Assembly (NCBI RefSeq): GCF_024448955.1
Contig: NZ_JAMOIH010000007.1
Location: 124,001 to 188,000, forward strand
Direction: 5' to 3'
Source: Stutzerimonas stutzeri
GTDB lineage: Bacteria; Pseudomonadota; Gammaproteobacteria; Pseudomonadales; Pseudomonadaceae
Length of the DNA: 64,000 bases
The notes beneath the pieces are model-generated. The model searched no databases, was not told the origin of the DNA, and saw only the letters and a list, made by a program, of their open reading frames with translations. The translations under genes were made by a program, and so were the position numbers. Every line of letters begins with the position of its first letter. Positions within the stretch are counted from its first letter, which is position 1. This document shows, piece by piece, positions 625 through 13,490 of this stretch.

Positions 625-1644
625 TCACGCGCTTTCGCGCATTACCACTTCGAACCCCACATCGATCCGCCGTTGCGTTGGCGTTTCGCCGCGCATCAGG
701 CTGAGCAGCATCTGCCCGGCCAGCGTGCCGATCTCGCCACGGATGGTGCGTACAGTCGTCAGCGCCGGGTGCATCCAAGCGGCGGCTGGCAGGTCGTTGA
801 AACCGGCAATGGCCAAGCGCCCAGGAACGGCCAGCTGCAACTGGCGGGCACGGAACAGCGCCCCCAGCGCCAGGTCGTCGTTATTGAAGAAGATCGCATC
901 GATGCCTGGCTGCTGGGCCAGTAGCCTGTCCAGCAGTTCGGCGCCAAGGCCGATGGAGGACACCTCCGGCGTCAGCAGTTCTAGCGCGGGGTCATAGCGG
1001 GACGCCTCGCGCATCGCCTTCCGATAACCTTCGGCACGCTGCAGGGTACGCGGGTCGAGCTGCGCAGCGGCGAAGGCGATGGTGCGGTAACCACGCTCGA
1101 GCAGCTTGCGGGTCATGGCGGCGCCTGCCTCGAATTGCGAAAAACCGACGCAGTAGTCCTCTTGTGCATCGCTCAGCTCCATCAGCGTGACGATGGGGCT
1201 GGTGTAGCTGTCCAGCACTTCGCGCGCGGCATCGCTGCGCTGGAAGCCGGTGACCAGAAGCCCCGCCGGCTGATGGGCCAGATAGGCACGCAACAGACGC
1301 TCGTCTTCCTCCGGACGATAGTGACTGACGCCGATCATCAGCTCATACCCGGCCGGCATCAGGACTCGCTGAACCGCCTCGACGGTATCGACGAATACGG
1401 CGTTCGACAGTGAAGGGATGATCACAGCTACGAGGTTCGACCTTGCACTGGCAAGGCTTCGCGCCGCGGTATGCGGTACGTAGCCCAGCGCTTTGACCGC
1501 AGCCATGACACGCTCGCGCAGCGCATCGGACACCCGCTCCGGTTGCGACAGCGCACGCGAAGCGGACATCAAGGAACAACCAGCACTGCGAGCCACATCG
1601 GACAATGTGACCCGCTCCAGAGAGCGGCGACGGCGAGAGCTCAT
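625..1644 (-). CDS. gntR: LacI/GalR-family repressor, probable gluconate regulator GntR
   Basis: A 339-residue LacI-family repressor. An arginine-rich N-terminus leads into a LacI helix-turn-helix at about residues 12-35 (VTLSDVARSAGCS...), then the hinge ending PHTAARSLAS, and a periplasmic-binding-protein-like sensor domain to the C-terminus. It is the last gene of a leftward set comprising the gluconokinase-DctQ fusion, dctM and dctP. That position and the LacI-type palindromes in the set suggest a gluconate or 6-phosphogluconate responsive repressor controlling its own operon. The start ATG has no strong ribosome binding site. Family call is certain; the ligand is inferred from the gluconokinase. 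PtxS-like regulators are the main alternative. Confidence 0.85.
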   Translation of the reverse strand: MSSRRRRSLERVTLSDVARSAGCSLMSASRALSQPERVSDALRERVMAAVKALGYVPHTAARSLASARSNLVAVIIPSLSNAVFVDTVEAVQRVLMPAGYELMIGVSHYRPEEDERLLRAYLAHQPAGLLVTGFQRSDAAREVLDSYTSPIVTLMELSDAQEDYCVGFSQFEAGAAMTRKLLERGYRTIAFAAAQLDPRTLQRAEGYRKAMREASRYDPALELLTPEVSSIGLGAELLDRLLAQQPGIDAIFFNNDDLALGALFRARQLQLAVPGRLAIAGFNDLPAAAWMHPALTTVRTIRGEIGTLAGQMLLSLMRGETPTQRRIDVGFEVVMRESA

Positions 1645-1685
1645 AGCGGGATCCAGCGGCGAGGGGCGGGAATTCTATACGGGAG

Positions 1686-1703
1686 GCGCCCCCGAAGGGG
1701 CGC
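1686..1703. other. GC-rich stem-loop between dctP and gntR
   Basis: GCGCCCC, a CGAA loop and GGGGCGC form a perfect 7-bp hairpin just after the dctP stop codon. There is no run of T on either side, so it is more likely an mRNA-stabilising or processing hairpin between the abundant binding-protein message and gntR than a complete terminator. Confidence 0.5.
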
Positions 1704-1709
1704 GCCCGA

Positions 1710-2726
1710 TCACTTCGGTGCTTTCGCGATTTCCGCCTGAACTTCGTTGAACAGCGGTTCACCGACCGTATCGATCACGGTCTGAATTGCCGGTTTGGCC
1801 TGCTCGCGCATACGCTGGATTTCTTCAGGGCTGACCTTGTTGATCTCCATGCCGTGCTCTTCGATTTGCGCCAAGGCTTCGCGGGCTTCGGCACGAGTAT
1901 CTTCGCGCTCCGAGTCGCGCGACTTCTTCGCCGCGTCCATGATGATGCCCTGCTCGGTCTCGGAGAGCCCGTCCCACCAGCGCTTGGACGCCGTAACGAT
2001 CCATGGGCTGTAGACATGATTGGTCACGCTCAGGTACTTCTGCACCTCATAGAACTTCGAGGAAAGGATGGTGTTGTAGGGGTTTTCCTGACCGTCGACC
2101 GCCTTGGTTTCCAGCGCGGTGAACAGCTCGGAGAACGGCAGCGGGACCGCATTGGCGCCCATCTGCTTGAAGGTGTCGATGAACACCGGATTTGGCATCA
2201 CGCGTAGCTTGATGCCGTTGAAGTCTTCCATCTTCTCGACCGGACGCACGTTGTTGGTGAGGTTGCGGAAGCCGTTTTCCCAGTAGACCAGGCCGACCAA
2301 CCCCTTCTCTTCCAGCGCGTCCATGACCTTCTGCCCGACCGGGCCATCGAGCACGTAATCCGCCTGCTTCTCGCTTTCAAAGAGGAACGGCGTATCCCAT
2401 ACCGCCATTTCCTCGGCGATGCCCACCAGGGTGGCGGTCGAACCGACCATCATTTCCTGCGCCCCGCCCATCAGCGCGTTCTGCATCTGGTCGTCCGATC
2501 CCAGGCTGGCGGAGGCAAACGTCCGCATCTTGAGCTTGCCGTCGGACGCCTTGGCGATTTCTTCGGCAAGCAGCTTCGCCGCCCTGCCCTGGTTGCTGTC
2601 TTCGTTGAGTCCATAACCGAAGCGGATCATTCGTGAACGAACGTCGTCAGCCGCCTGCGCGCTGACCGCGGTGATGGCGCTACCGAGCGTGGTGGCCGCC
2701 AGGGCCGCTATGAGAAATCGTTTCAT
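1710..2726 (-). CDS. dctP: TRAP transporter solute-binding protein, DctP type
   Basis: A 338-residue periplasmic binding protein of the DctP family. The N-terminus (MKRFLIAALAATTLGSA...) is a typical Sec signal peptide ending near AQAA. The mature part shows DctP hallmarks: the FGYGLNEDSNQGRAA opening, the central GIKLRVMPNPVF segment containing the conserved arginine that binds the ligand carboxylate, and FTALETKAVDGQENP. An AAGG ribosome site precedes the ATG. It is encoded after the matching permease genes dctQ (fused to gluconokinase) and dctM, so the three make a complete TRAP system. Gluconate or a related sugar acid is the likely substrate, inferred from the fused kinase. Confidence 0.93.
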   Translation of the reverse strand: MKRFLIAALAATTLGSAITAVSAQAADDVRSRMIRFGYGLNEDSNQGRAAKLLAEEIAKASDGKLKMRTFASASLGSDDQMQNALMGGAQEMMVGSTATLVGIAEEMAVWDTPFLFESEKQADYVLDGPVGQKVMDALEEKGLVGLVYWENGFRNLTNNVRPVEKMEDFNGIKLRVMPNPVFIDTFKQMGANAVPLPFSELFTALETKAVDGQENPYNTILSSKFYEVQKYLSVTNHVYSPWIVTASKRWWDGLSETEQGIIMDAAKKSRDSEREDTRAEAREALAQIEEHGMEINKVSPEEIQRMREQAKPAIQTVIDTVGEPLFNEVQAEIAKAPK

Positions 2727-2823
2727 GCTGTCTTACCTTTTGTTGTTGTGGATGGAATGAAGGTGAAGCTTTTCTCGCCAAGGCGAAACCTAAATGCCGC
2801 TGCGGAACGAGTACCTGCCCCGA

Positions 2824-4101
2824 TCAGCGCAACCATTGCAGCGGCACGGTGATAATCGATGGCACGGCTACCAGCAGTGCGACGATCAGCAAATAAATAA
2901 CGAAGAATGGGATCACTCCGCGCACCAGTGTCTCCATGCGCAACCTGCCGATACCCCCGACAACGTTCAGCACAGTGCCCACCGGCGGCGTAATTAAACC
3001 GATGGAGCCGATCAATACGAACATCACGCCGAAGTACACCGGATCGATACCAGCTTTGACCGCGATAGGTGCCAGCACTGGTCCAAGGATGAGAATGGTC
3101 GGTGTCAGATCGAGCACCATGCCAATCGCGATCATCAGCACCATGATGGCAACCATCAGCAGCTTCGGATCTTGCGCCAGCGGGCCGAGCATCATGGCGA
3201 TCTCGTCCGGCAACTGCGCCAGCGTGATCATGTACCCGGAAACGATTGCGGCGGCGCAGAGGAACATCACTGACGCCGTGGTACGGCTCGCGCGGGTCAG
3301 CACTTCTATTACGCCGCGCCAGTTGAGTTCGCGATACAGCAGGGTCGAAACGGCAAGCGCATAAACCGCTGCCACCACTGCTGCCTCGGTTGGCGTGAAC
3401 AACCCGCCACGCAAGCCGCCGACGATAATTACCGGAAGCATCAAGGCGGCTGCTCCGTCGACCAGCGCCTTGCGCCGCTCGGCACGGGTGGCTTTTTCCT
3501 GTTGGGGTTCGTCGATCTTGCGTGCGATCAGCGTCCAGGCCACCACAAGTCCAGCCCCCATGATCAAACCGGGCACCATACCGGCGAGGAACAGCTGACT
3601 GATCGATGTGTTGGTCACCACGCCATAAATCACGAAAGGCATCGAGGGCGGAATGATCGGAGCGATAATGCCGCCAGCTGCTACCAGACCCGATGACGAA
3701 CTCAGTGGATAACCGCGCTCGCGCATCATCGGCAGCAACAGCGTGGCCAGCGCCGCGGTGTCCGCCAGTGCCGAGCCGGACATACTTGCCAGCAGCACCG
3801 AGGCAGCAATCGCAACATACCCAAGCCCACCGCGCTTGTGGCCGAAATAGGCCTGCGCCATGTTGATGATCCGGCGAGAAATGCCGCCGGCATTCATCAA
3901 TTCACCGGCAAGAATGAAGAACGGCACGGCCAGCAGTGGAAAGCTGTCAGCACCGGCCTGAAGGTTCTGGGCCAGCAACTGCACATCCCAGAAATCCAGA
4001 TACCACATCAGCACCGCACCAGTGAGAATCAGCGCGAATGCGATCGGCATGCCGAAGGCCATGAAGCCAAACAGTGAAGAAAGGAAGACGACGACAGTCA
4101 T
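2824..4101 (-). CDS. dctM: TRAP transporter large permease, DctM type
   Basis: A 425-residue, very hydrophobic protein with about 12 membrane segments, the normal size for a DctM subunit, which forms the sodium-coupled transport channel. Recognisable DctM segments include FPLLAVPFFILAGELMNAGG near residue 55, the GGIIAPIIPPSMPFVIYG segment, and GLITPPVGTVLNVVGG near the C-terminus. GAGG precedes the ATG at a suitable distance. It lies 43 bases after the gluconokinase-DctQ stop codon and 97 bases before dctP, consistent with one transcript. Confidence 0.95.
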   Translation of the reverse strand: MTVVVFLSSLFGFMAFGMPIAFALILTGAVLMWYLDFWDVQLLAQNLQAGADSFPLLAVPFFILAGELMNAGGISRRIINMAQAYFGHKRGGLGYVAIAASVLLASMSGSALADTAALATLLLPMMRERGYPLSSSSGLVAAGGIIAPIIPPSMPFVIYGVVTNTSISQLFLAGMVPGLIMGAGLVVAWTLIARKIDEPQQEKATRAERRKALVDGAAALMLPVIIVGGLRGGLFTPTEAAVVAAVYALAVSTLLYRELNWRGVIEVLTRASRTTASVMFLCAAAIVSGYMITLAQLPDEIAMMLGPLAQDPKLLMVAIMVLMIAIGMVLDLTPTILILGPVLAPIAVKAGIDPVYFGVMFVLIGSIGLITPPVGTVLNVVGGIGRLRMETLVRGVIPFFVIYLLIVALLVAVPSIITVPLQWLR

Positions 4102-4144
4102 GTACGGTCCTCAGGCGGGCATTGCCCATGTTGTTATCGAAAAG

Positions 4145-5287
4145 TCAGTCGGCCGTTACATTGGCGTCGGCGGCATGCGGCTGGGGCTGTCCGCGCCATA
4201 CGTTCACGAGTTGCAAAAGCGCCAGGACCGTCAGTGCGATCATGCTGGCCATCACCGGTAGCATCGCTACTGCCAGCGGATAGCCCACTACCGGGCTATT
4301 GATGTTCCAGCCGAACTGCATCTGGTTCCATCCGCCCATAGCAGCCATGCCGCTGGCGACGGCCACCATCAGCCAGCTGACCGAATCGACCAAACGGCGA
4401 AACAACTTTGGAAAACGATCACGGATCATGCTGAAAGCCATCAGCTCTCCACGGCGCATGCTCGACGCGACGCCAACGAAGACCAACCAGACGAAGGCCA
4501 ATCGCGAAAGCTCCTCGGCGCCAGTCCAACCGGTACCGAAGGCATAACGCAGCACCACGCTGCTAAACACCACGATCACCATAAAAGCGAGCAAGCCCGC
4601 CATCAGCCAATCGGTGATCCGATCGAAGCTCTGCGCTATTTTTCCGCTGTAGATGGGTGCGCTAGTCAACTCAGCGCCGCGCGCCAGCTCTGTGTTAGCG
4701 CTATCAAGCGGGCGTGCGGAAAGATCCTCGCGATCGGCGATTTCAAGTCCAGAATCACGCTGCATCCAGCTGACGATTTCTCCGAGGACCTGCTCGCGCG
4801 ACTGGCTGGCATCGACTACCAGCACACCGGGTTCGCCTTCCGGCGACTCGAGTGTGGCGAACTGGCTGTCCACCAAAGAAATCGGCATGAAATGTCCAGC
4901 ACGGCCACCCACGCGCTGAACGGCCGTGTCGTAATCGATGGACAGATGCGCGAAACGCAAGGTGGGAACCGCATCGCGCAATAGATCACGGTAGCGGCGC
5001 TTGAGCGCTGAACAGGCCAGCACGAAGCCGACGTCGTCTTCGATTGCCTTTTGCATCTCGATGATGAGCTTCTGCAGCCACTCGACACGATCAGTGTCGG
5101 ATAGCGGCGTGCCCGCGCGCATACGGGCAACGTTCTCTTCGGGATGGAAATTATCGGCTTCGATATGACGAAAACCCAATGCTTCGGCGACGGCATGGCT
5201 GGTGTCGGTCTTGCCCGAACCGCTGACGCCCATAACCACCAGCGCGCGGCTGGCGACGGGAATGTCGCTATGGGAGTGGAAATCCAC
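4145..5287 (-). CDS. Gluconokinase fused to TRAP small permease (GntK-DctQ fusion)
   Basis: One uninterrupted frame encodes two proteins. Residues about 11-178 are a gluconokinase: P-loop GVSGSGKT at 20-27, then EADNFHP and the CSALKRRYRD segment typical of GntK. A linker (about 179-222) leads into a DctQ subunit with four membrane helices (about 227-250, 263-277, 300-320, 336-362), including the RYAFGTGWTGAEELSR segment. The GTG at 5287 is chosen as start because GGAGAG lies six bases upstream. An in-frame ATG at 5353 lies inside a putative operator and lacks a ribosome site. A kinase on the cytoplasmic N-terminus of DctQ fits DctQ topology and would put phosphorylation at the entry pore. 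Separate proteins are the norm; a sequencing frameshift could mimic this, but both halves are intact. Confidence 0.9.
   Translation of the reverse strand: MDFHSHSDIPVASRALVVMGVSGSGKTDTSHAVAEALGFRHIEADNFHPEENVARMRAGTPLSDTDRVEWLQKLIIEMQKAIEDDVGFVLACSALKRRYRDLLRDAVPTLRFAHLSIDYDTAVQRVGGRAGHFMPISLVDSQFATLESPEGEPGVLVVDASQSREQVLGEIVSWMQRDSGLEIADREDLSARPLDSANTELARGAELTSAPIYSGKIAQSFDRITDWLMAGLLAFMVIVVFSSVVLRYAFGTGWTGAEELSRLAFVWLVFVGVASSMRRGELMAFSMIRDRFPKLFRRLVDSVSWLMVAVASGMAAMGGWNQMQFGWNINSPVVGYPLAVAMLPVMASMIALTVLALLQLVNVWRGQPQPHAADANVTAD
4693..4706. promoter_or_regulatory. Candidate GntR operator inside the fusion linker codons
   Basis: TGTTAGCGCTATCA (plus strand) matches the ideal palindrome TGTTAGCGCTAACA at 13 of 14 positions and shares the full TAGCGCTA core with the promoter-proximal site about 640 bases away. 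It lies within codons for Asp-Ser-Ala-Asn, in the linker between the kinase and the DctQ membrane domain. A CG-centred palindrome is usual for LacI-family operators. Binding is inferred. Confidence 0.5.
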
Positions 5288-5338
5288 TATCGGCTCTCCA
5301 GCAGCATCAATGTGCCGCGTTATGATTGTTGAGCCGGA

Positions 5339-5352
5339 TGGTAGCGCTAACA
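5339..5352. promoter_or_regulatory. Candidate GntR operator at the gluconate operon promoter
   Basis: TGGTAGCGCTAACA matches the palindrome TGTTAGCGCTAACA at 13 of 14 positions, with a perfect 8-bp core TAGCGCTA centred on CG. It lies about 50 bases upstream of the GTG start of the kinase fusion and just downstream of an AT-rich TTATAGTA stretch that could be the -10 region, the expected place for a repressor site. From memory, Pseudomonas GntR sites contain a TAGCGCT core. Confidence 0.6.
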
Positions 5353-5368
5353 TATTTTTACTATAACT

Positions 5369-6970: not shown

Positions 6971-7882
6971 TCAGAGGCGTCCCGGCACAGCCATGAGCCT
7001 CTCCGCCTGTTGGCGAACCTGGGCCAGCAATTCCAATTGCGCAGCCGACGAGGCTTCCTGGGCGCGCACCAGTGCGTACAGCGGCACCGGAATCATCGGT
7101 TCCAGCGGCCGCGCCTGCATGGCGTGATCCCCGCCGGCCAGCGCCGTAAGCGGATCGACCAAAGCCAGCCCCTGCCCGGCCGCCACCAGCGAACGCGCCA
7201 ACTGGTAGGTCTGCACCCAGGTACTGATACGCGGCGGCGGATCGAGCTCTTCGAGGTGTCCGCGCAGCAGGCCGCCCAGCGCATCGCGGGTGTCCAGTCC
7301 GATCAGCGGCGCATCGGCCAACTCCTCCAGTCGCAAGGGGCACGCCAGCTCGGCAGCGGACCACCAATTGGCCGGCGCGATCACCATCATCTGCCCCTGC
7401 GCGAGCACCTCGCTGCTCAAGCCAGGGTGCTCAACCGACTGCAAGGTCAGCCCAAGATCGGCTTCGCGCAGCAACAAGGCCTCAACGATTTCCGCCGTGT
7501 GCTGGGTGGCGAGCTGACAGGGCGTGCTGGCGAAGCGCTCCCGCCAGCAGCGCAACGCTTCTGGCAGCAGCACCTGGGCCAGCGCGGGTGTGCAGATCAG
7601 CCGCAACGCCCGCTCTTCACCACGGCCGAGATTACCGGCCAGACGCCGAAGGCTCTGCAAGTCTGCAGCCAAGCGTTCGGTTTCCTGTTGCAGGATGCGC
7701 GCCTCGGCGGTCGGCTGCAGCTTGCCGCGCACCCGACTGAACAGCGCGAAGCCGAGCTGCTGCTCGGCGTGCTTGAGAATCTTGCTCGCCGCAGGCTGAG
7801 AGATATGCAGCAGCTGCGCGGCGGCGGTCAGGCTGCCGGTTTGCAGGATGGCCTGGAACAGTTCGATGTGGCGAAGGCGCAT
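6971..7882 (-). CDS. LysR-family regulator, divergent from a D-amino-acid dehydrogenase
   Basis: A 303-residue LysR regulator of normal length. The start MRLRHIELFQA is the standard LysR N-terminus; the frame is open further upstream but that extension would be atypical. The helix-turn-helix is GSLTAAAQLLHISQPAASKILKH, and a binding domain follows. It is divergently arranged with the dadA-like gene, with about 125 bases between the starts, so it probably controls that gene together with ridA and the TAXI gene. The inducer may be an amino acid, as for other LysR-dehydrogenase pairs; this is inference. Confidence 0.9.
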   Translation of the reverse strand: MRLRHIELFQAILQTGSLTAAAQLLHISQPAASKILKHAEQQLGFALFSRVRGKLQPTAEARILQQETERLAADLQSLRRLAGNLGRGEERALRLICTPALAQVLLPEALRCWRERFASTPCQLATQHTAEIVEALLLREADLGLTLQSVEHPGLSSEVLAQGQMMVIAPANWWSAAELACPLRLEELADAPLIGLDTRDALGGLLRGHLEELDPPPRISTWVQTYQLARSLVAAGQGLALVDPLTALAGGDHAMQARPLEPMIPVPLYALVRAQEASSAAQLELLAQVRQQAERLMAVPGRL

Positions 7883-8007
7883 GCAAAGATCCCCAGATTG
7901 ACGGGCCGAAGCATAACCCCAGGTTATGGGTTGCCTCCAACCTTTCATTGGCCGCTTCGCTGGTGTCGGACCTAGGCTTCCGTCATCCATTTTCACGGAG
8001 CGGCACG

Positions 8008-9252
8008 ATGCGAATTGCGGTAATCGGCGGCGGCGTCATCGGGCTGACCACGGCCTATGCACTGGTGCGCCAAGGCCATCAGGTCGAGCTGATCGAGAAA
8101 CGCGATCAGGTGGCGCTGGAGACCAGCTTCGCCAATGGTGGCCAGCTGAGTTATCGCTACGTATCGCCGCTGGCCGATGCCGGTGTGCCCTTGCAGGCGC
8201 TCGGCTGGATGTTCCGCGGCAACGATGCCCCACTGCGTTTCCGGCCCAAGATGAGCATGCAGCAGTGGCGCTGGTGCTCGCGTTTCCTGCTCGCCTGCCG
8301 CCGCTCGACCAATAAGCGCAACGCCTCCCACTTGCTGCGCCTGGCCCTTCATAGCCAGCAGGTGTTGCGCAACTGGCGCGAACAGGACGGCTTGGACGAC
8401 TTCGCCTGGCGCGCCAACGGCAAGCTGGTGATCTACCGCGACCGTGCCAGCTTGGACAAAGCCGCCTCAGGTCTGAGTAACGAAGGCAATCAGCAGCTGT
8501 TCGATGCCGATCAATGCGCAGCCATTGAGCCCGCATTGCAGCCTTTGGCTGGCGCCCTACAAGGGGGCATCTACTCGCCCGGCGACGAAGTCGCGGACTG
8601 TCACCTGTTCTGCCGACGGTTGCTGGAACGGCTTAGCAAGTCGCCCAACTTTCACCTGCACAGCGGTCAGACGGTCAATACATTGCGCAGCGAGCATGGC
8701 CGCGTACGCGCGGTGGTGCTCGGCAACGACGAACTGACCGTGGATCACCTAGTGATCGCCGCCGGCGCTGCCAGTGTGGCGCTGCTGCGACCGCTCGGCA
8801 TCGAATTGCCGATCTACCCACTCAAGGGGTACAGCCTGACGTTGCCGTTGCGCAGCCATGCCGGAATCCCTGATACCAACGTCACCGACTACGACAACAA
8901 GGTGGTTTACGCGCGCCTCGGCGATAACTTGCGAGTGGCGGCGATGGTCGATATCGGCGGCTGGGATGCGAGCCTGGATCAGGGGCGGATCGCCATGCTG
9001 CAGCACCTCGCCAGCGAGACCTTTCCCGCCGCGGGGGACTATCGCAGCGCTACCCAGTGGGCGGGCCTGCGCCCGGCGACGCCAGAGGGTACGCCGCTGC
9101 TCGGCGCGACTACGCTCGACAATCTCTGGCTCAACGTCGGCCATGGCAGCCTTGGTTTCACCTTGGCCTGCGGCAGCGCCGACCTGCTTTGTGGTCTGAT
9201 TGGCGACCAGCGCCCTGCCGTTGCGCTGGATGGTCTGACCCTCGCGTCCTGA
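8008..9252 (+). CDS. FAD-dependent D-amino acid dehydrogenase (DadA family)
   Basis: A 414-residue flavoprotein of the DAO/DadA family. The N-terminal dinucleotide motif is IAVIGGGVIGLTTAYAL, followed by ELIEKRD, and the C-terminal half has the GLRPATPEGTPLLGAT and NVGHGSLGFTLACGSADL segments that close the FAD site in DadA. The product would be an imino or keto acid with electrons passed to the respiratory chain. GGAG lies seven bases before the ATG; an in-frame ATG 60 bases upstream lacks support. RidA next door would hydrolyse the imino acid. Substrate is unknown; it may be a DadA paralogue rather than the D-alanine enzyme, because no dadX racemase is adjacent. Confidence 0.88.
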   Translation: MRIAVIGGGVIGLTTAYALVRQGHQVELIEKRDQVALETSFANGGQLSYRYVSPLADAGVPLQALGWMFRGNDAPLRFRPKMSMQQWRWCSRFLLACRRSTNKRNASHLLRLALHSQQVLRNWREQDGLDDFAWRANGKLVIYRDRASLDKAASGLSNEGNQQLFDADQCAAIEPALQPLAGALQGGIYSPGDEVADCHLFCRRLLERLSKSPNFHLHSGQTVNTLRSEHGRVRAVVLGNDELTVDHLVIAAGAASVALLRPLGIELPIYPLKGYSLTLPLRSHAGIPDTNVTDYDNKVVYARLGDNLRVAAMVDIGGWDASLDQGRIAMLQHLASETFPAAGDYRSATQWAGLRPATPEGTPLLGATTLDNLWLNVGHGSLGFTLACGSADLLCGLIGDQRPAVALDGLTLAS

Positions 9253-9278: not shown

Positions 9279-9632
9279 ATGACCCTGCAACGCATCGAGA
9301 CCAACGAACGCATGTCCGCCGCCGTGACCTTTGCCAACCTGGTATTTCTGGCCGGACAGGTGCCGGATGACCGTAGCGAAGATGTCGCCGGGCAGACCCG
9401 CCAGGTGCTGGCTAAGATCGATAGGCTGCTGGCCGCGGCCAGCTCCGATCGCTCGCGGACGCTGAGCGCGCAGATCTGGTTGAAGAACATCGACGCCGAC
9501 TTCGCGGCGATGAACGCTGTGTGGAGCGAATGGTTGCCCGCCGGTTGCGCGCCGGCCAGGGCCACCGTCGAAGCGCGCCTCGCTTCTGCGGACGTGCTCG
9601 TGGAAATCATGGTGATCGCCGCCAGCGCCTGA
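9279..9632 (+). CDS. RidA-family imine deaminase
   Basis: A 117-residue protein of the RidA/YjgF family, whose trimers hydrolyse reactive 2-imino acids to keto acids and ammonia. The segment VTFANLVFLAGQVPDD and the APARATVEARLA segment carrying the conserved arginine are recognisable. AAGAGGA precedes the ATG, 26 bases after the dehydrogenase stop. The pairing is functionally sensible: the dehydrogenase makes an imino acid and RidA clears it. It is slightly shorter than the main RidA, so probably a locus-specific paralogue. Confidence 0.9.
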   Translation: MTLQRIETNERMSAAVTFANLVFLAGQVPDDRSEDVAGQTRQVLAKIDRLLAAASSDRSRTLSAQIWLKNIDADFAAMNAVWSEWLPAGCAPARATVEARLASADVLVEIMVIAASA

Positions 9633-9750: not shown

Positions 9751-10722
9751 ATGAATCAGAGTATCCGTATCGGTCTGCTGGGCTGTGCCTTGGCAGGCTC
9801 GCTGAGTGCAACCACGGCTGTGGCCCAAGAGCGCTTCGTCACCATCGGCACCGGTGGCCAGACCGGCGTCTACTACACCGCTGGACAATCGGTGTGCCGC
9901 CTGCTCAATCGCGCCGAGGTGCAGCCGGCGATCAAGTGCAACGCGCCGTCCACCGCCGGCAGCGTCACCAATATCGTTTCGTTGCGCAACGGCGAATATG
10001 AGTTCGGCTTCATCCAGTCCGACCATCAGCACAAAGCGCTGAAGGGGCTCGCGCCGTTCGACAAGGACGGTCCGATTGATGAGCTTCGGGCGGTGTTCTC
10101 CTTGCAGACAGAAATCCTCACGGTGGTGGCCCGAGCCGACAGTGGCATCAAGACATTCGATGATCTCAAGGGCAAGCGAGTGAACATCGGCGTGCCGGGC
10201 TCCGGCAGCCGCGACACCTTCGACGAGGTGATGAAGGCCAAGGGTTGGACCAACGCCGACTTCTCTCTGGCCGGCGAACTCAAGCCCGCGGAAATGGCTT
10301 CGGCGCTCGGCGACAACAACCTCGACGCCATCACCTACGTGGTCGGCCATCCCAGCGGCGCCATTCAGGAGGCGCTGACCAATGTCGAGGCCGAGCTGAT
10401 TCCGGTCAGCGGTGCGGAAATCGAGAAGTTTCTCCAGGGTGCCGATTACTACACCGCCGCCGAAATTCCAGCTGGACTCTACCCAGGCGTGGATGCGGCG
10501 GTGCCTTCGATTGGCGGCAAGGCCGTGCTGGCGACCACCGCTAAGGCCGACCCGGAAGTGGTGTATCAGCTGGTCAAATCAGTGTTCGACAACCTAGAAC
10601 GATTCAAGCGCCTGCATCCTGCCTTCGCCAATCTGGAAGCCAAGGACATGATCCGCGTCGGCCTCACCGCGCCGCTGCACGAGGGTGCCGAGCGGTTCTA
10701 TAAGGAGAAAGGCTGGTTGTGA
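9751..10722 (+). CDS. TAXI-type TRAP transporter solute-binding protein
   Basis: A 323-residue periplasmic binding protein of the TAXI family. A signal peptide ends near AVAQ, followed by ERFVTIGTGGQTGVYYTAGQSVCRLLN, the family signature opening, and later FDDLKGKRVNIGVPGSGSRDTFDEVM. GAGAGGGA precedes the ATG. TAXI proteins normally work with a large fused DctQM permease encoded next door, but no intact permease gene follows; only a short coupled ORF does. The location after dadA-like and ridA genes suggests an amino acid or related acid as ligand. Confidence 0.92.
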   Translation: MNQSIRIGLLGCALAGSLSATTAVAQERFVTIGTGGQTGVYYTAGQSVCRLLNRAEVQPAIKCNAPSTAGSVTNIVSLRNGEYEFGFIQSDHQHKALKGLAPFDKDGPIDELRAVFSLQTEILTVVARADSGIKTFDDLKGKRVNIGVPGSGSRDTFDEVMKAKGWTNADFSLAGELKPAEMASALGDNNLDAITYVVGHPSGAIQEALTNVEAELIPVSGAEIEKFLQGADYYTAAEIPAGLYPGVDAAVPSIGGKAVLATTAKADPEVVYQLVKSVFDNLERFKRLHPAFANLEAKDMIRVGLTAPLHEGAERFYKEKGWL

Positions 10723-10877
10723 CCGAATTGCGCTGCTCTGACAGGGCGGCGCTTTCCATCAATGCCGTGCAGCTCACTGACGATGCAGGCAAGGTGAGCG
10801 TCCCACGGCACTTAGGCGTCTGGATCCTCGCAGTCATCCGTCGCGCCGCAGCGATGGCATTCCCTGATCGATGGTAG
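10719..10877 (+). pseudogene. 52-codon ORF coupled to the TAXI gene, possible stump of a TRAP permease
   Basis: A GTG at 10719 overlaps the TAXI stop codon by four bases (GTGA), with AAGGAG upstream, and opens a frame of 52 codons ending TAG. The product starts VTELRCSDRAALSIN, continues with acidic residues, then PRHLGVWILAVIRR as if approaching a membrane helix, and stops at PDRW. A polar stretch before a first helix is what a fused TAXI-type permease has at its N-terminus, and such genes usually overlap the binding-protein gene. I infer a deletion that removed the permease. It could instead be a genuine small protein or chance. Confidence 0.4.
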
Positions 10878-10930
10878 TGACCATCGCGTTTACCCGCCTC
10901 GCTTTATCTTTCTTGCCGCGCAGCCTTGGT

Positions 10931-10963
10931 GGCTGATCTTGATGGCTGATCTTGATGGCTGAT
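10931..10963. repeat. 13-bp tandem repeat, about 2.5 copies
   Basis: GGCTGATCTTGAT occurs twice head to tail, followed by GGCTGAT of a third copy, in the non-coding stretch between the possible permease stump and ybiT. The rest of that gap (10878-11124) holds a possible -10 box, TACAAT, about 100 bases before ybiT, and nothing else recognised. Confidence 0.85.
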
Positions 10964-11124
10964 GGCGCAGCCGACCGAACGGACACGCGAAGCCCTGTCG
11001 AATCGCGGCCATCCGCACTACAATGCACGCCCTTTACGCAACTCGCCTCTCGCACCGGTCGGATCGACCGGGCTTGGTCGCGTCTGTGCCGCACCCCGGC
11101 CTCTCTGAAACCCAGGACACCGCT

Positions 11125-12711
11125 TTGATCTCCACAGCTAACATCACCATGCAATTCGGCGCTAAGCCTCTGTTCGAGAACGTTTCCGTCAAGTTCGGCA
11201 ACGGCAATCGCTACGGCCTGATCGGCGCCAACGGCTGCGGCAAGTCGACGTTCATGAAAATCCTCGGCGGCGATCTGGAGCCTTCCGGTGGCCAGGTGAT
11301 GCTCGAACCCAACGTACGTCTGGGTAAGCTGCGCCAGGATCAGTTCGCCTACGAAGACTTCAATGTCATCGACACGGTGATCATGGGTCACGAGGAGCTG
11401 TGGAAGGTCAAGGCCGAGCGCGAGCGTATCTATTCGCTGCCGGAAATGAGCGAGGAGGACGGCATGGCCGTGGCCGAGCTGGAAACCGAGTTCGCCGAGC
11501 TGGACGGCTACACCGCCGAATCCCGCGCCGGCGAGCTGCTGCTGGGCCTGGGCATTCCGCTGGAGCAGCACTTCGGCCCGATGAGCGAAGTGGCGCCCGG
11601 TTGGAAGCTGCGCGTGCTGCTGGCCCAGGCGCTGTTTTCCGACCCGGAAGTGCTGCTGCTGGACGAACCGACCAACCACCTGGATATCAACACCATCCGC
11701 TGGCTGGAAGACATTCTCAAAGTCCGCAACGGCACCATGATCATCATTTCCCACGACCGGCACTTCCTAAACAGCGTGTGCACGCACATGGCCGACCTGG
11801 ATTACGGTGAGCTGCGTCTGTTCCCCGGCAACTACGACGAGTACATGACCGCGGCCACCCAAAGCCGCGAGCGCCTGCTGTCAGACAACGCCAAGAAGAA
11901 AGCGCAGATTGCCGAACTACAAACCTTCGTCAGCCGCTTCTCGGCCAACGCCTCAAAAGCCAAGCAGGCCACCTCGCGCGCCAAGCTGATCGACAAAATC
12001 CAGCTCGACGAAGTCAAACCGTCCAGCCGCGTCAGCCCGTTCATTCGCTTCGAGCAGACCAAGAAACTGCACCGTCAGGCCGTGACGGTAGAAAGCCTGG
12101 CCAAGGGCTTCGACGGCAAGCCACTATTCAAGAACTTCAGCTTCACTGTCGAAGCCGGTGAGCGCGTCGCTATCATCGGCCCCAACGGCATCGGCAAGAC
12201 CACGCTGCTGCGTACTTTGGTCGGCGACCTTCAGCCGGATGCCGGCTCGGTGAAGTGGACCGAAAGCGCTGACGTCGGCTATTACGCGCAAGATCATGCC
12301 GAAGATTTCGAAGATGACGCGACCCTCTTCGACTGGATGGGCCAGTGGACCCAAGGCGGCGAGCAGCTGGTGCGCGGCACTCTCGGCCGCATGCTGTTCT
12401 CCAACGACGAAATCCTGAAATCGGTGCGAGTAATTTCCGGTGGCGAGCAGGGCCGCATGCTGTTCGGCAAGTTGATCCTGCAAAAGCCCAACGTGCTGGT
12501 GATGGACGAACCGACTAACCACCTGGACATGGAATCCATCGAGGCGCTGAACCTGGCGCTAGAGAACTATCCGGGTACGCTGATCTTCGTCAGCCATGAC
12601 CGCGAGTTCGTAGGCTCGCTGGCCACGCGCATCATCGAGCTGTCCGAGTCGGGCGTGACCGACTTTAGCGGCACCTACGATGATTACCTGCGCAGCCTCG
12701 GCGTGATCTAA
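11125..12711 (+). CDS. ybiT: ABC-F family ATPase, YbiT type
   Basis: A 528-residue soluble protein with two ABC ATPase domains and no membrane part, the ABC-F ribosome-associated class. Domain 1 has Walker [10 protein letters not shown] and Walker [13 protein letters not shown] charged linker follows (about 245-320), and domain 2 has GPNGIGKTT and [10 protein letters not shown]. Near-identity of long stretches to E. coli YbiT, such as [22 protein letters not shown], makes the subgroup call firm. The start is a TTG giving (M)[11 protein letters not shown], aligned with the YbiT N-terminus; the frame is open upstream but that region does not fit the family. Role: probably ribosome rescue or translation-factor-like activity. 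Confidence 0.92.
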
Positions 12712-12730
12712 CGGATCGCAGCGATAGAAG

Positions 12731-12756
12731 ACGCCCCGCTAGCACGGGGCGTTTTT
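12731..12756 (+). terminator. Rho-independent terminator of ybiT
   Basis: ACGCCCCG and CGGGGCGT form an 8-bp stem around a six-base loop, followed by TTTTT, 20 bases after the ybiT stop. Confidence 0.9.
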
Positions 12757-12800
12757 GCATCTGTACCCAGTTGTCGCCTCCAGCTTCGCCTGAGCCTGGA

Positions 12801-13490
12801 TCAAATCTGCGGCAATAATCGGTGGAGGCGCTGGAGATACAGATAGTCGAACCACGCAACCTGATGCGCGATGACGATCAGCCAGAACACCAGCTGGAAC
12901 GACAGTTTGCGGGTTTTGTGTCGCAACCATTGCTGGGCGATCAATGCGCCCGGCCAGCCACCGAGTAATTCGACCAGATGCAGCCGCGCCTCGGGTGTGC
13001 GCCAACCACTGCGCAACGCGCGGCGTTTGTCATGCAGATACAGCCCAAAGGCCAGCAAACTAGCCAGTACGTATGCGAACAGCGGCCAGTTGCTGCCCTG
13101 CTCCGCCAATCGAAGGCTGCCGAGCGCAGGCAGCAGACAGAGCGGGAACAACCCCAGCGCTTTCAATAGCGGCTGCTGCAACGGACCGTTACGGCGTGCG
13201 CGCGGCGCGGGCTTCACAGACTGCGTGGGGCGGGATTTCGGCAGGGACGGTTTGCGGCGTATGGCTGGTTCGTCGAGGGAAAGCGGCGCATCAAGCCGGA
13301 TATGCGTAGCACGCAGGCGCCCGGCCTTGTCGGGTTCGCTCAGATACAGCACCCGGTCGCCTTGCACCGGGCGACGCACGCCACGCATGGCCGAGATATG
13401 GGCGAAGACATCACCACTACCCTGCTCTGGCCGGATGAAGCCAAATCCTTTTTGGTCATCCCAGCTTTTAAGCTGACCGCGTAATTCCAT
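12801..13490 (-). CDS. Cold-shock domain plus DUF1294 membrane protein
   Basis: A 229-residue two-part protein. Residues 1-68 are a cold-shock nucleic-acid-binding domain with RNP1 GFGFIRPE and RNP2 VFAHIS. A basic, proline-rich linker (about 70-105) leads to a C-terminal DUF1294 domain with about four hydrophobic helices and the usual YLHDKRRAL and HLVELLGGWPGALIAQQWLRHKT segments. The combination is widespread in gammaproteobacteria but its role is unknown; tethering RNA to the membrane is a guess. It is convergent with ybiT. Confidence 0.92.
   Translation of the reverse strand: MELRGQLKSWDDQKGFGFIRPEQGSGDVFAHISAMRGVRRPVQGDRVLYLSEPDKAGRLRATHIRLDAPLSLDEPAIRRKPSLPKSRPTQSVKPAPRARRNGPLQQPLLKALGLFPLCLLPALGSLRLAEQGSNWPLFAYVLASLLAFGLYLHDKRRALRSGWRTPEARLHLVELLGGWPGALIAQQWLRHKTRKLSFQLVFWLIVIAHQVAWFDYLYLQRLHRLLPQI

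Follow-up and report, generated by a model that had tools for sequence, protein, structure and literature searches.

A chance reading frame behind a conserved orphan TAXI gene of Stutzerimonas stutzeri, and a claw-bearing TRAP permease as the candidate partner of its product

The gene encoding a TAXI-type TRAP solute-binding protein in the analyzed stretch of Stutzerimonas stutzeri DNA (64,000 nucleotides, referred to as the window) is a conserved orphan and the last gene of an operon composed of LysR, DadA-like, RidA, and TAXI genes. The 52-codon ORF that overlaps its stop codon was regarded in the preliminary description as the possible stump of a deleted TRAP permease; judged by its sequence, it is a chance opening running over an RNA hairpin and not such a stump. 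The most convincing overall explanation, to which we assign a probability of about 0.7, combines this chance ORF with a dgu-like operon, the orphan TAXI protein of which would borrow a permease carrying a "claw" domain and encoded on another contig (C2) of the same genome.

The operon is accompanied by a divergently oriented gene for a LysR-type regulator (positions 6971 to 7996, −; PF00126 and PF03466), which may control its transcription. The true start of this regulator is probably located about 38 codons inside the ORF, and the profile matches begin at residue 39. The gene at 7993 to 9252 (+) encodes a DadA-like FAD-dependent D-amino acid dehydrogenase (PF01266, DAO), which probably starts with the ATG of MRIAVIGGG. 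This protein reached 466.7 bits (cut-off 383) against the NCBIfam model PRK00711 for D-amino acid dehydrogenase, a subfamily model that is not specific for D-glutamate. It is followed by a RidA/YjgF-type protein (9279 to 9632, +), which scored above the cut-off of PF01042 and under the NCBIfam cut-offs and is presumed from its sequence to be an imine deaminase. The TAXI gene itself (9751 to 10722, +; PF16868, TIGR02122 above cut-off) has no neighboring permease gene.

TAXI proteins with at least 82% identity were present in 33 out of 56 genomes of the genus, the genome of the window included, and these define the 33 Stutzerimonas loci compared here. The LysR gene lies beside the operon in 32 of them and the DadA-like gene was likewise detected in 32; in both cases, the contig of the remaining locus is too short. 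RidA was found in 31 loci, counting L058, in which only a 42-residue RidA match was detected. The loci L063 and L067 have no RidA gene between the DadA-like gene and TAXI. A TAXI permease was not detected in any of the 33 loci within the flanks covered (2.9 to 13.4 kb downstream). The earlier statement that the binding protein has no transporter of its own thus holds for the window and, within these flanks, for its 32 relatives of the same genus, and the orphan state is old and conserved in Stutzerimonas. In a class-wide search with the DadA-like protein (E 1e-95), matches were obtained in 3 of 368 genomes beyond the one under study, all of them with 41% to 42% identity.

The ORF at 10719 to 10877 (+) indeed shows the features first reported for it: a GTG start, 52 codons, and the sequence GTGA shared by its start and the TAXI stop. 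Such an overlap takes no more than a single stop codon after a codon with a final G. When the region from 10723 to 11124 (62% G+C) was shuffled 5000 times with dinucleotide composition retained, at least 52 codons were open from GTGA in 33% of the cases. No coding signals were detected in the ORF: the G+C content at third codon positions is 69% versus 78% to 82% in the TAXI, DadA-like, and ABC-F genes, and none of the Pfam and NCBIfam profiles matched it. The open length of the same frame varies from 5 to at least 200 codons among the 32 relatives of the genus, with closure after 20 codons in the nearest one (locus L049, TAXI 98% identical), and the GTG start was found in 5 of the 33 loci, including the window. 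A small conserved protein encoded by this ORF was considered as well and rejected, since the frame is not kept among the relatives.

That a recent deletion left the ORF behind as the N-terminus of a permease has to be regarded as highly improbable. The overlap at GTGA is real, the ORF does contain a short hydrophobic run, and orthologous TAXI genes of some Pseudomonas directly precede a permease gene. In local alignments with 19 TAXI permease N-termini of 170 residues each, none was similar to the 52 residues beyond the range of shuffled sequences, and 44% to 99% of the shuffled ORFs scored equally well or better (fractions 0.44 to 0.99). A relic of a permease gene did not appear either. A protein profile of 18 permeases, applied in six frames to the 2.6 kb behind TAXI in all 33 loci, gave no match up to E 10, whereas the controls were recovered (C9 permease 2e-118, DctM of the window 1e-13). 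The corresponding DNA profile yielded negative scores throughout the same regions (E 0.65 or worse); its two matches in the window are located inside the next gene. The overlap with the TAXI stop, taken earlier as frequent among TRAP permease genes, is not usual in intact TAXI-permease pairs: in 29 of them, the permease begins well past TAXI, with 83 to 315 nt between the ends of the matches and not one overlap. By the same measure, the pair on contig C9 of the S. stutzeri genome, which is outside this tally, is separated by 61 nt.

Directly past the TAXI stop, the ORF covers a 10-bp hairpin (10730 to 10752, +) that resembles a terminator but is not followed by a run of five T. Its folding energy amounts to −19.8 kcal/mol (z −3.4). 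In nine loci, which were picked for this hairpin type, an 8-pair stem is paired to 95.8% (0 of 500 shuffles as high), and two-sided, that is compensatory, changes occur at three stem pairs (10 of 500 shuffles with as many). Over all 33 loci, the first 50 nt from the TAXI stop fold with z ≤ −2 in 23 and do not in 10, as measured against mononucleotide shuffles. The hairpin presumably marks the 3′ end of the operon transcript. Because a strict pattern scan requiring a T run did not find a canonical terminator at the hairpin, the structure may act as a weak terminator or as a processing or stability element.

Further downstream, three copies of a 13-bp unit form a tandem repeat (10925 to 10963, +), as the preliminary description had stated. 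The repeat is a local duplication; its interpretation as a deletion scar is ruled out by locus L049, in which the exact unit is absent and the spacing between TAXI and the next gene (ABC-F) is still 407 nt, compared to 406 nt in the window. The practically unchanged intergenic length of this nearest relative, combined with a frame of only 20 codons there, also argues against the ORF as a permease stump.

Three TAXI genes above the cut-off are encoded in the S. stutzeri genome, the assembly of which is 99.99% complete. The closest paralogue is located on contig C2, shares 65% identity with the TAXI protein of the window, and precedes a fused permease of approximately 856 residues. The third TAXI gene (33% identity; contig C9) precedes another fused permease with 704 residues in open frame. 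Among the TAXI permeases of the genome, the DUF3394 "claw" domain was found only in the fused permease on C2; the C9 permease did not match DUF3394. In the L-glutamate system of Vibrio cholerae, a contact between the claw and the binding protein VcGluP has been predicted, and in a tree of 59 the claw is restricted to the neighborhood of VcGluP (PMC11574862). The earlier idea that the orphan might share the permease of another system is therefore supported as far as sequence data can do so: a claw permease and a 65% identical paralogue exist elsewhere in the genome, and this permease is the best-supported candidate partner of the orphan TAXI protein. In locus L047 (7156 to 10036), genes for a sensor kinase and an NtrC-like regulator, both assigned by eye, immediately precede the TAXI-permease pair of C2; among the C2-pair loci compared, the two occur together with high identity in L097 only.

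Two other permeases of the genome, the fused one on C9 and a TRAP permease encoded about 6 to 7 kb upstream of the TAXI gene, exist and could in principle accept the orphan protein, but either pairing appears quite unlikely. The C9 permease comes with its own TAXI protein, only 33% identical to that of the window, and is devoid of a claw match. The upstream permease, which differs from the TAXI type and is found at this distance in 28 of the 32 relatives, belongs in the window to a separate TRAP system with its own DctP and with a DctQ that carries a kinase-like domain as a fusion; TAXI-TRAP systems, in contrast, were always found with a fused DctQM according to a review (PMC5812351). The fusion itself (4145 to 5353, −) joins a kinase-like AAA_33 domain, by eye a gluconokinase, in-frame to the small TRAP subunit DctQ and is part of a LacI/DctP/DctM gene cluster at 625 to 5353. 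It was matched in 28 of the 32 relatives, with two pieces in L068 and one stop in L061. Among the literature matches listed, none reported such a fusion in its title or at the start of its abstract.

The choice of the claw permease gains further support from genomes in which it is linked to the operon. TAXI proteins of the window type (at least 73% identity) were found in nine genomes outside the genus. In seven of these (L081 to L087), which were picked because both TAXI types lay near each other, the gene order is C2-type TAXI, LysR (−), DadA-like, RidA, window-type TAXI, and claw permease; the window-type TAXI proteins are 73% to 76% and the C2-type claw permeases 86% to 88% identical to their counterparts in the S. 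stutzeri genome. The same order of paralogue, cassette, and claw permease was seen in eight named loci of the group around Pseudomonas mendocina, six of which apparently correspond to L081 to L087 (P. composti, P. toyotomiensis, two P. mendocina, P. khazarica, and Pseudomonas sp. 8O), the two others being P. yangonensis and Pseudomonas sp. ZH-FAD. The remaining two of the nine genomes (G206 and G308) resemble Stutzerimonas: the cassette stands by itself, and the C2 pair is encoded at another site. In G384 and G366, each with a single TAXI match at E 1e-100, the cassette adjoins a more distant permease of its own (64% and 69% to 70% identity, respectively). The preliminary description looked to relatives for an intact permease at this place; none of the 33 Stutzerimonas loci has one, whereas it is present behind the orthologous TAXI gene of some Pseudomonas. 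These intermediate arrangements suggest which permease may be relevant for the orphan.

One further locus (L128, contig JAHHHI010000064.1) is filed under a cyanobacterial metagenome-assembled genome (Kaiparowitsia). It harbors a Pseudomonas-type cassette followed by a claw permease, has no C2-type TAXI gene in the 6 kb upstream, and encodes proteins 68% to 86% identical to those of the S. stutzeri genome; very likely, it is a misbinned contig of Pseudomonadaceae. All 42 genomes with a window-type TAXI, and 110 of 356 others, encode a permease closely related to that with the claw (E of at most 1e-200), a comparison over 398 pooled genomes of the family in which the lineages are not independent and common descent is ignored.

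Because a permease directly follows the orthologous TAXI gene in some Pseudomonas, a former linkage may have been lost in Stutzerimonas. If so, the loss may have preceded the diversification of the genus, and the ORF at 10719 to 10877 would not be its trace. In the TAXI tree, the cassette-linked proteins are separated from 27 paralogue rows, with G384 and G366 in between; the tree is in effect unrooted, since the outgroup branch is too long. In the permease tree, calculated by a quick method only, L128 and the mendocina-group genomes have their permeases placed among the C2-type ones, and those of G384 and G366 lie outside. Taken together, the two trees make it plausible, but do not prove, that the linkage was lost in the ancestor of Stutzerimonas. 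That the permease gene was once located directly behind TAXI and was separated from it in this ancestor by a deletion or relocation without leaving a trace has, in our estimate, slightly less than an even chance. The cassettes adjoining a permease in G384, G366, the mendocina-group genomes, and L128 speak for it, as does the separation of the cassette-linked TAXI proteins from the paralogue rows; the unreliable root of the TAXI tree speaks against it, and the mendocina group may just as well have gained the linkage. The question concerns history rather than function, and either answer is compatible with a claw permease shared by the orphan and its paralogue.

The closest structurally solved relative of the TAXI protein of the window is VcGluP (8s4j), to which it could be aligned over 296 residues without gaps. 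Nine of 13 ligand contacts of VcGluP are identical (V44, Y45, Y46, S75, Q93, E125, G156, Y200, and G203), and four are changed (S40, H123, D157, and M201). The key contacts Y45 and Q93 are kept in the TAXI protein of the window, in 44 cassette-linked rows, in two more distant rows, and in the 27 paralogue rows. Fixed differences between the 44 cassette-linked and the 27 paralogue rows were observed at contacts 75 (Ser/Gly), 157 (Ser/Gln), and 201 (Val/Phe), at which G384 and G366 side with the cassette-linked rows. The contacts of the side-chain carboxyl group are the same in both sets. In VcGluP, positions 75, 157, and 201 touch the alpha-carboxyl group, its water, and, via the main chain, the amino group (PMC11574862). 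Judged from the alignment, differences on the alpha-carbon side of the pocket could fit a changed handedness of the substrate; with 3 of 13 contacts (P 0.07), the differences are only weakly enriched there. The same study reports that binding by VcGluP was not severely reduced when S75 or M201 was replaced by alanine and that VcGluP binds D-glutamate weakly (24.5 µM; PMC11574862). The ligand of the orphan TAXI protein is most likely of the glutamate type, plausibly D-glutamate or D-glutamine.

On the basis of these data, the TAXI protein would serve as the periplasmic binding protein of a LysR-flanked catabolic operon with a plan similar to dguRABC and deliver a glutamate-type ligand to the fused TRAP permease with the claw, the gene of which is located on the other contig. 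This permease would be common to the orphan and to the paralogous TAXI protein encoded beside it. Inside the cell, the DadA-like dehydrogenase would convert the ligand by oxidation into an imine, the hydrolysis of which to the keto acid would be accelerated by RidA. A TAXI protein without any transport partner, used only for sensing or periplasmic binding, is conceivable given that a permease is not adjacent in any of the 33 Stutzerimonas loci; we consider it unlikely, since an operon of catabolic enzymes should need uptake and related loci have a permease directly behind TAXI.

The shared claw permease can be extended to a more specific proposal, which we put forward tentatively and rate at a little below one in two: one claw permease would serve two TAXI proteins, the paralogue for L-glutamate and the orphan for D-glutamate, with the handedness set by the binding protein, and D-glutamate operons would have swapped ABC-type and TRAP-type binding proteins while keeping the enzymes. 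Neither permease sharing in TAXI systems nor a D-glutamate operon that includes a TAXI gene was found in titles and abstract starts of open-access articles, among the matches listed. While the question of the stump is in itself an ordinary one, the orphan TAXI protein and the claw permease provide a concrete pair with which to ask whether a TRAP permease can be served by more than one binding protein, and a candidate substrate is suggested for a so far uncharacterized TAXI protein.

Among the systems known, the TAXI protein of Bordetella pertussis is likewise encoded at a distance from any TRAP permease gene, being coupled to gltS instead, and TAXI-GltS pairs have been described (PMC12344293). 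A GltS symporter as partner of the orphan, as proposed for Bordetella, has a negligible probability here because the S. stutzeri genome lacks a GltS family match, whereas the control search detected GltS of E. coli and Corynebacterium. As a candidate, GltS was rejected on the grounds of its absence from an assembly of this completeness. With VcGluP-VcGluQM of V. cholerae, the 9 of 13 ligand contacts are shared by the binding proteins, and a claw domain (DUF3394) is also present in the candidate partner permease. This system differs in that VcGluP has a cognate permease (PMC11574862), and the TAXI protein of the window has none adjoining.

A parallel in gene content is the dguRABC locus. It comprises genes for a dehydrogenase (DguA), a RidA protein (DguB), and a binding protein of the SBP_bac_3 type (DguC) beside that of a regulator. 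In P. aeruginosa, this locus reportedly serves D-glutamate and D-glutamine (He et al. 2014). DguR is a LysR-type regulator of dguA in D-glutamate catabolism (PMC10926688). For growth on D-glutamate, strain PAO1 requires aatJ, aatQ, and aatP, the genes of an L-glutamate ABC transporter (PMC7962211), which sets a precedent for the entry of D-glutamate via an L-glutamate transporter. A literature search for PA5082/PA5084 and the Dgu names yielded nothing usable. The proposed link between dguRABC and the operon of the window was drawn from gene content.

Nine loci of Pseudomonadaceae with a DadA-like gene (at least 54% identity) and no TAXI gene were also examined. In five of them (L102, L105, L106, L107, and L110), an SBP_bac_3-type protein is encoded directly behind RidA; judged by eye, the ORFs that follow are unlike ABC permeases, and in L110 the contig ends at this point. 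SBP_bac_3 was not matched in the other four, one of which (L108) is missing both LysR and RidA. In locus L101 (genome G074, 10880 to 13190), LysR, DadA-like, and RidA genes are followed, where a binding protein would be expected, by genes assigned by eye to a glutamine amidotransferase and to a sodium/amino acid symporter of the AGCS type, apparently a further transporter swap in this type of operon.

The operon of the window shares with dguRABC the divergent LysR gene, the DadA-like dehydrogenase, and RidA in this order. Behind RidA, dguRABC encodes an ABC-type binding protein of the SBP_bac_3 family, whereas TAXI occupies this slot in the window, for which reason the operon is termed dgu-like rather than a dgu locus. 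With a TAXI protein in place of an SBP_bac_3 protein, the permease borrowed by this operon would be of the TRAP and not of the ABC type.
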